Assembly (NCBI GenBank): GCA_004010535.1
Contig: RQYE01000002.1
Location: forward strand, 124,001-188,000
Source: Coriobacteriales bacterium OH1046
GTDB lineage: Bacteria; Actinomycetota; Coriobacteriia; Coriobacteriales; Atopobiaceae
DNA: 64,000 bases
Direction: 5' to 3'
The translations under genes were made by a program, and so were the position numbers. This document shows positions 55,092 through 57,158 of the stretch, in pieces. Each line of letters begins with the position of its first letter. Position 1 is the stretch's first letter. The notes beneath the pieces were generated by a model. It was not told the DNA's origin. It worked only from the letters and a program-made list of their open reading frames with translations, and did not search any database.

Positions 55092-56180
55092 CTATTCCAG
55101 CGTTTCCGCGCACCGTGCGAGCAGGTCGATGATGGACAGGTGCTGTGGGCAGGCCGCCTCGCACCGCCCGCATGCGATGCAGGATGAGGCAGGGTTCCCC
55201 GTGCTTGCAGCCCGAGCGTACAGCGTGCGTGCGTGCTCTCTCCGGCCGTTGCCGAGCTGCTCGTTCATCGCCGAGAAGACAGCGGGGATGGGGATTTTTT
55301 GCGGGCAGCCCGCCGTGCAGTAGCCGCATCCGGTGCATTGGATGATGCCCGACGCGCCGAGAGCCGCCTGCGCTTGGCGGATCGTCGCGCGCTCTGCGGC
55401 ATCGAGGGGTTTGAAATCGCGCATGGACGAGAGGTTATCGGCCATCTGCCCGATGTCCGACATGCCCGAGAGCACGGCGAGCACGCCGTCGAGCGATGCG
55501 GCGAAGCGGATGGCCCAGGAGGCGGGGGAGGCGTCCGGATTCGCAGCCGCGAGGATCCGCGCAACCTCGGTAGGCGGATGTGCGAGCTTGCCGCCTTTGA
55601 CGGGTTCCATGATCACGATCTGCTTGCCATGCGCACGGGCGATCTCGTAGTTGGCGCGTGCGTGCACGGTGGGGCTCTCCCAGTCGGCGTAGTTGATCTG
55701 CAGCTGCACGAACTCCGCATCGGGATGCAGGGTCAGGAGCTCGTCGAGCAGCTCGGGGCCATCGTGGTACGAGAAACCCCAATGGCGGATGGTGCCCTCG
55801 CGCTTAAGCTGGCGTGCGTAATCCCAGAGGCCCATGCGGTCGTACTTGCTGCGGTTGCCCGACATGATGGAATGCAGCAGGTAATAGTCGATGTAGTCGG
55901 TTCCCATGCGCTTGAGGCTCGTCCGGATCTGCTTGCGTGCAGCAGCCTCGGTGGGAGCGATGGGTGCGTAGAGCTTGGTCGCGATGGTGAACGACGCGCG
56001 CGGATGGCGGCGCACGAGCGCCTTGCGCGTGGCATCCTCCGAACCCACATACACGAGCGCGGTATCGAAATAGGTGAAACCCGCTTCGAGGAACATATCG
56101 ACCATGGTGCAGGTTTGCCCGATGTCGGTCATGAGGCCCTTGCGCGGCAGCCGCATGAGGCCGAATCCCAGATTGGACAT
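55092..56180 (-). CDS. Aldo/keto reductase with C-terminal 2x[4Fe-4S] ferredoxin domain
   Basis: A 362-aa protein. Residues 1 to about 270 form an aldo/keto reductase barrel: 'FDTALVYVGSEDATRKAL' (catalytic Asp-Tyr region), 'IATKLYAP' (Lys) and 'HWGFSYHDG' (His). The C-terminus has two cluster motifs, 'CTGCGYCTAGCPQKIPIP' and 'CIACGRCEAACPQHLSI'. This fusion is common in anaerobes and couples reduction to ferredoxin-type electron transfer. The ATG at 56180 has 'aggagggtgc' upstream. Substrate unknown. A 41-bp inverted repeat lies between it and nrdG upstream. Confidence 0.92.
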   Translation of the reverse strand: MSNLGFGLMRLPRKGLMTDIGQTCTMVDMFLEAGFTYFDTALVYVGSEDATRKALVRRHPRASFTIATKLYAPIAPTEAAARKQIRTSLKRMGTDYIDYYLLHSIMSGNRSKYDRMGLWDYARQLKREGTIRHWGFSYHDGPELLDELLTLHPDAEFVQLQINYADWESPTVHARANYEIARAHGKQIVIMEPVKGGKLAHPPTEVARILAAANPDASPASWAIRFAASLDGVLAVLSGMSDIGQMADNLSSMRDFKPLDAAERATIRQAQAALGASGIIQCTGCGYCTAGCPQKIPIPAVFSAMNEQLGNGRREHARTLYARAASTGNPASSCIACGRCEAACPQHLSIIDLLARCAETLE

Positions 56181-56252: not shown

Positions 56253-56421
56253 AGACCGTACCCATGAGCAAATCGGAGTTGTGGGAAGATTTCAGGCGAG
56301 GCTGCGCGTTACAGGAGGAGAGGCGTCAAAGAAGCGCAGGTAGAAATGGTTCCCCGTATGACGGGTCGAGCGATGGGAGAGAAATCTTCCCACAACTCCG
56401 ATTTGCTCATGGGTACGGTCT
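56253..56421. repeat. 41-bp perfect inverted repeat with 87-base loop
   Basis: The left arm 56253-56293 and right arm 56381-56421 are exact reverse complements over 41 bases. The 87-base loop contains smaller potential hairpins (CTGCGC/GCGCAG and CCCGT/ACGGG). It sits between nrdG and the aldo/keto reductase, both on the minus strand. No transposase, target duplication or T-run is visible. It may be a non-autonomous mobile element or a structured RNA. Confidence 0.85.
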
Positions 56422-56432
56422 GCCCATCGTGC

Positions 56433-57158
56433 CTACGCGCGCCGGAATTCGAAATGCTCGAACAGATCGGCCACGCCTGCGGGCATGTCGGAGGGGAAAA
56501 CCGTCTCGTTGGGAAGCGATCCGTCCGTACCGGTGTGACGGTAGGCCTGAACCGCCCAGGTCCTCACGCCGCGCGCAGCCAGATCGCGGCCGATCGCCGC
56601 GATGTCGTCCTGCGACAGCAGGGCGGGATGCCAGGTGGTGCGTGCCTCCATATCCACGTCCGCCTCGAGGACGGCATCGAGGCTCGCGCGCGCGAGGGGG
56701 CCGGTGCCCGGTGCCAGCGTCACCCGATCATAGGCATCCCACGGGGCCTTCACATCGAGGCCCACCCAGTCAACGGAGGGAAGGATCGCGCGCAGGCGCG
56801 CGGGGAACGCGCCGCAGGTGTGGAGCCCCACGGCAAAGCCCAGCTCGCGGGCATGCTGCGCCGCGCCGATGACGTCTTCCTGCGCAAGCGGCTCGCCGCC
56901 CGAGAAGACCACGCCGTCGAGCAGGCCCCGCCGCGCCTCGAGGAACGAGAAGAGCTCTTCGGCTCCCAGTGTGGCGGCATCGCGCGCCTGCAGGATGTGG
57001 TTCTGGCAGTAGGGGCACCTCCACGGGCATCCGGCGAGGAATGCCACGCATGCGAGCCTCCCCGGCCAATCGACCGTGGAGAACGGCGTGATCCCCCCGA
57101 TGTAGAGCGGTCCGCCGCCGCCCCGGGAGGAGACGGCAGCGGAGTCGTGGACCGTCAT
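56433..57158 (-). CDS. nrdG: Anaerobic RNR-activating radical SAM protein
   Basis: A 241-aa radical SAM protein. The cluster motif CxxxCxxC is 'CPWRCPYC' (about 44-51), and 'VVFSGGEPLAQED' is the SAM 'GGE' region. In the order nrdD, glycyl tail gene, nrdG on the minus strand it must generate the glycyl radical on the NrdD system. It lies 12 bases downstream of the small glycyl gene. The ribosome site before 57158 is weak, so the start could lie slightly downstream. It is the last gene of the class III RNR operon. Confidence 0.92.
   Translation of the reverse strand: MTVHDSAAVSSRGGGGPLYIGGITPFSTVDWPGRLACVAFLAGCPWRCPYCQNHILQARDAATLGAEELFSFLEARRGLLDGVVFSGGEPLAQEDVIGAAQHARELGFAVGLHTCGAFPARLRAILPSVDWVGLDVKAPWDAYDRVTLAPGTGPLARASLDAVLEADVDMEARTTWHPALLSQDDIAAIGRDLAARGVRTWAVQAYRHTGTDGSLPNETVFPSDMPAGVADLFEHFEFRRA

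Follow-up and report, generated by a model that had tools for sequence, protein, structure and literature searches.

A mobile palindromic mini-element beside nrdG in Coriobacteriales bacterium OH1046 and its relatives in a sister species

What is the long, perfect inverted repeat that stands beside nrdG in Coriobacteriales bacterium OH1046? It is located in a stretch of 64,000 nt (contig RQYE01000002.1, positions 124,001 to 188,000), the whole of which is referred to below as the window. A preliminary description of this DNA pointed to a 41-bp perfect inverted repeat with an 87-base loop between two minus-strand genes, and considered a MITE-like non-autonomous element, a structured RNA gene and a recently inverted duplication. 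Here, the genome with the window copy is designated G000 and that of the sister species G001; contigs and loci are numbered with the prefixes C and L, and this repeat is called family 1.

A repeat search in the window recovered exactly these arms, 41 nt in length, 100% complementary and 87 nt apart, with nrdG and an aldo/keto reductase gene on either side. The features of the region are as follows.

55092..56180, minus strand: aldo/keto reductase with a 4Fe-4S domain; its start codon is 72 bp from the left arm
56253..56293, plus strand: left arm of the 41-bp perfect inverted repeat (repeat search)
56253-56258, part of the left arm: outer stem AGACCG, which varies among loci (outer stem comparison)
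56259..56415, no strand: repeated (mobile) unit, 157 bp, ends TACC...GGTA, family 1, loop group C2 (limits of copy-versus-copy similarity)
56270..56292, plus strand: conserved arm core AAATCGGAGTTGTGGGAAGATTT (21 genome matches at <=3 mismatches, reversed control 0)
56294..56380, no strand: loop of 87 bases, oriented as in the orthologous G001 copy (loop orientation test)
56328..56344, plus strand: loop-centre motif AAAGAAGCGCAGGTAGA, kept among C2-group copies (alignment of loop groups)
56381..56421, minus strand: right arm, the reverse complement of the left arm (repeat search)
56382..56404, minus strand: conserved arm core of the second arm (same pattern search)
56416-56421, part of the right arm: outer stem CGGTCT
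56433..57158, minus strand: nrdG (radical SAM activase); the element begins 11 bp past its stop codon

The folding energy of the plus strand is -103 kcal/mol (z = -14.6), and none of 200 dinucleotide shuffles was as good; for the minus strand, the values are -93.7 and z -14.4 (dinucleotide shuffles). The further hairpins ascribed to the loop are present as just two short stems in the predicted fold, but they are weak. The arm core has no other match within the window, where the shuffle expectation is 0.

Outside the window, further copies are numerous. A search with the 189-bp region as a query revealed more arms on many G000 contigs; the 23-nt arm core with up to 3 mismatches gave 21 matches in G000 and 0 for the reversed control, nearly all G000 arm matches being arranged in inverted pairs. 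According to the pattern searches on which the copy counts rest, the arm TACCTATGAGCAAATCGGAGTTGTAGGAAGATTY occurs in inverted pairs in about 20 copies in G000 and about 18 in G001. Using arm patterns that would miss diverged arms, 16 forward and 18 reverse arms were found in G001 and none in G002-G004 of the same genus; no paired arms were detected outside G000 and G001 among 140 genomes of the taxonomic family at the mismatch limits used; and an exact paired-arm scan of 84,980 named genomes yielded a single match, the MAG JPNA_maxbin.197. A shorter arm pattern (<=1 mismatch) in the 140 genomes was found in G000 and G001, plus one stray single match. Searches of phages, plasmids and viral contigs gave no match for the element. 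According to a rough gene finder, all 38 copies lie clear of predicted genes, and no copy with a gene between its arms was found. The pattern searches gave no copy with a long interior either, all paired arms found being 80-90 bp apart. In the two sister species, the family 1 unit is scattered over intergenic sites, and the reading of the locus as a one-off duplication fails. A recently inverted duplication is contradicted by the presence of the window element at the orthologous G001 site: the window copy predates the species split, and its stem has been kept perfect. In G002-G004, no empty window site is readable, because the neighbourhood is not conserved there; the aldo/keto reductase gene is present, and no nrdG was seen next to it in the stretches compared.

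Copies of the repeated unit measure about 148 or 157 bp, with arms of about 38 nt, and are limited by TACCTNNGAGC at one end and its mirror GCTCNNAGGTA at the other. The similarity of non-orthologous copies typically ends 7-8 nt outside GAGC/GCTC, with unrelated flanks beyond; several G000 group A copies, however, have some flank in common beyond this limit. The L085 and L090 copies are 97% identical over 147 nt. In L078, L085, L095 and L112, the outer flanks are locus-specific yet complementary. By length, the loops form two classes (about 79-81 and 89-91 bp); by sequence, they form four groups, A, B, C1 and C2, the last of which includes the window copy. The sequence GCAGGTA in the loop centres of group C (for example, window positions 56328-56344) is the reverse complement of the G001 element end TACCTGC. 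Two contigs, C16 at its end (L104) and C6 at its start (L105), break off inside element copies of G000 that share 148 identical bases. A mixed loop orientation of one locus was considered here, but the outer flanks differ, and L104 and L105 are better read as two copies, probably very recent and near-identical ones that broke the assembly. The G000 copy L101 (C2:261966), located just past a tRNA-like sequence, is collapsed and has lost its loop, and its G001 orthologue L090 is intact.

The copies differ in how they are shared between the two species. Group A copies occupy non-orthologous places in G000 and G001, with loops that are still alike, whereas some group B and most group C copies are orthologous. 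One clean pair of empty and filled sites was found, L244 of G000 (empty) and L078 of G001 (filled), with flanks 98-99% identical. The empty site has the hairpin structure CCGAGAGCATGGAAG-CGCGCGGCCGCCC-CTTCCATGCTCTCGG, and the filled one reads stem, loop, element, reverse complement of the loop and original 3' stem. The element entered a pre-existing hairpin, and an inverted second copy of the hairpin loop now stands beyond the element. At L078, TTCC is the only candidate for a 4-bp direct repeat, and a simple target duplication is not seen. Shorter orthologous G001 sites can also be noted for the group A copies L103, L106, L110 and L114, plus L100. In L100, the left flank mirrors the right one, and the element is missing from G001 at a hairpin-like site, so this copy may follow the same insertion pattern; insertion at or next to dyad symmetry is thus seen at L078 and, it seems, at L100. 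Family 1 is less than 200 bp in length, non-coding, multicopy and bounded by terminal inverted repeats, and has an empty/filled site. These features, with the copy numbers in both genomes and no transposase inside, support the MITE-like, non-autonomous element suggested in the preliminary description.

Two signatures mark the copies, namely the agreement of their arms and the orientation of their loops. The two arms of a copy resemble each other more than they resemble the arms of other copies; among 2000 permutations in each genome, 0 reached the observed agreement. Compared with G001, the window arms carry six mirrored substitutions and one unmirrored, and L106 has a 1-base deletion in both arms, which fits copying better than stepwise compensation. 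The homogenisation is incomplete, since changes in one arm outnumber mirrored ones in several orthologous pairs (1 mirrored versus 8 unmirrored in L097/L082). Loop orientation relative to the flanks can be tested in seven orthologous pairs, between species only. It is the same in four, including the window copy, and inverted in two, probably three: L109/L088 (z 12.6 versus 2.7), L108/L087 (z 11.5 versus 2.7) and L102/L089 (z 6.9 versus 1.4), the last with L089 at a contig edge and a different loop on another contig. In G001, the starts of C56 (L089) and C23 (L086) carry the same flank next to different loops; either copies have exchanged loops or the assembly is chimeric here. Because the G001 sequence is a fragmented assembly from a metagenome, with 6% contamination, assembly could account for part of the differences in loop orientation.

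Taken together, family 1 is probably a non-autonomous palindromic MITE-like family that is mobilised in trans, its arms being kept perfect and its loops flipped by replication template switching. A trans-acting transposase would recognise the conserved arms TACCTNNGAGCAAWTYGGAGTTGTAGGAAGATT and insert the unit near palindromic sites. Template switching between the arms during replication would then copy one arm onto the other, giving perfect arms despite indels; the same process may carry the palindrome on into flanking DNA and, at times, turn the 80-90-bp loop round. The inverted loop of L078 and such extension of the palindrome could likewise be explained by fold-back copying after a plain insertion. 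Template switching has been documented both to homogenise arms and to invert spacers (PMC8604942, PMC8794818). The reported inversions share with family 1 the matching arms and the turned spacer; however, they concern 2-5 bp in yeast and up to 8 nt in rRNA, while family 1 has spacers of 80-90 bp in dispersed repeats (PMC8604942, PMC8794818).

G000 also contains a second, unrelated family of palindromes, whose arms, built around GGGCACTTATTCCGCAG, start exactly 117 bp from each other; its loci include C1:106116, C15:126070, C13:33974, C1:285374 and C14:147518 (L294, L300, L308, L304 and L310). It is present in G000, G001 and, as one degenerate copy, in G002; among the family genomes searched, it is limited to this genus. 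Loop inversion within the genome was considered for it and dropped, because the flank similarity belongs to the palindrome and all four orthologous copies keep their loop orientation. This constancy counts against the explanation preferred for family 1, although the difference, four of four kept against three of seven inverted, is not decisive.

Invertons consist of inverted repeats of shared sequence that flank short segments found in both orientations. Family 1 resembles them in the two or three of seven orthologous loci whose segment differs in orientation between species, and differs in that its unit also reaches new sites and no recombinase is assigned to it. The copies might accordingly be invertible DNA switches, whose 80-90-bp segments would be flipped via the shared arms by a dedicated site-specific recombinase, perhaps turning promoters. 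Arms common to all loci of a genome and two loop lengths that differ by about one helical turn would suit such switches. Nevertheless, the window copy has no promoter-like site around it, and no candidate for a shared invertase was found. G001 has no serine recombinase and G000 only a large one, so a shared serine invertase is ruled out by its absence from G001. Judged by size and sequence features, the tyrosine recombinases shared by both genomes appear to comprise two of Xer type and one phage-type integrase; this integrase is also present in G004, where the arms were not found. Switches would also leave insertion and arm homogenisation in need of other explanations, and we regard them as unlikely. 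An integrase at G000 C15:54479 was considered as well and set aside; a second-family copy lies near it in G000 but not near its orthologue in G001. A bolder version of mobility, in which family 1 is a hairpin-targeting mobile hairpin with a fold-back mode not described before, leaving an inverted duplication of the target loop and about twenty flipping segments across the genome, also appears doubtful.

It is rather improbable that the copies are REPINs, that is, paired REPs mobilised by the RAYT (Y1/HUH) transposase of the genome. RAYT genes do occur, one in G000 and two in G001, GTAG is present within the arms, and the intergenic location and inverted pairing fit; extragenic placement and a spacer between two conserved sequences in inverted orientation are likewise shared with GTAG-tagged REPs and REPINs (PMC3733652). 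The arm, however, does not look like a short hairpin with a GTAG tag, the CCTA/TAGG self-pairing being weak and missing in some copies. The repeat flanking the RAYT genes, GACAAGGGGACAGG or a variant, differs from the family 1 arms, and RAYTs are also encoded by other genomes of the genus without arm matches. RAYT was therefore rejected as the family 1 mobiliser, its flanks holding another repeat. The G000 RAYT-like Y1 transposase gene (C12:120707-121033; L042, L283) has GTGACAAGGGGACAGG-type repeats on both sides. Of the G001 genes, located on C112 and C33, L281 also has GTGACAAGGGGACAGG-type repeats on both sides, and a CCCGTCCCCTTGTT variant lies near L282.

It is very improbable that the copies are structured RNAs or terminators maintained by selection for the RNA stem: the fold is very stable, the window arm substitutions are mostly mirrored and the element follows nrdG closely, but Rfam covariance models give no match, a T-run terminator is absent at the window copy, gene contexts are mixed (rough gene finder), the both-arm deletion points to copying, and transitions and transversions are about equally frequent among the arm mismatches (the strand not being known), so that no sign of G-U tolerance is seen. 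The suggestion of a structured RNA gene is not needed for the locus, while a transcribed role, such as a 3'-end or termination hairpin or a structured RNA at nrdG, is possible as a guess.

The probable MITE-like family can be compared with elements already known. YPAL/RU-2 of Yersinia, a palindromic repeat of about 168 bp (PMC2229807), is the closest to family 1. The two are similar in length, palindromic and intergenic, and their ends are not of the TA MITE type; both show recent mobility by empty and filled sites and targets at or beside dyad symmetry, and in neither is a mobilising enzyme assigned (PMC2229807). They differ in sequence and host, and the arms of family 1 are longer and near-perfect; loops inverted between species and an inverted duplication of the target loop are features of family 1 that the available part of PMC2229807 does not describe for YPAL/RU-2. 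ERIC/IRU and the Correia (NEMIS) MITEs are also short, non-coding and intergenic, with terminal inverted repeats and strong hairpins, but, according to that review, their perfect TIRs are shorter (7 and 24 bp) and they have simple target duplications, which are not seen in family 1 (PMC2229807). On the evidence here, family 1 is best placed beside YPAL and ERIC as a new family of the same kind, being neither YPAL itself nor a REPIN.

Family 1 adds a family of palindromic mini-elements to a lineage in which literature searches found none, and it offers a clean empty site inside a hairpin. Its roughly forty copies in two species form a test set for distinguishing site-specific inversion from template switching, and they can also serve to study how hairpin targets are chosen.
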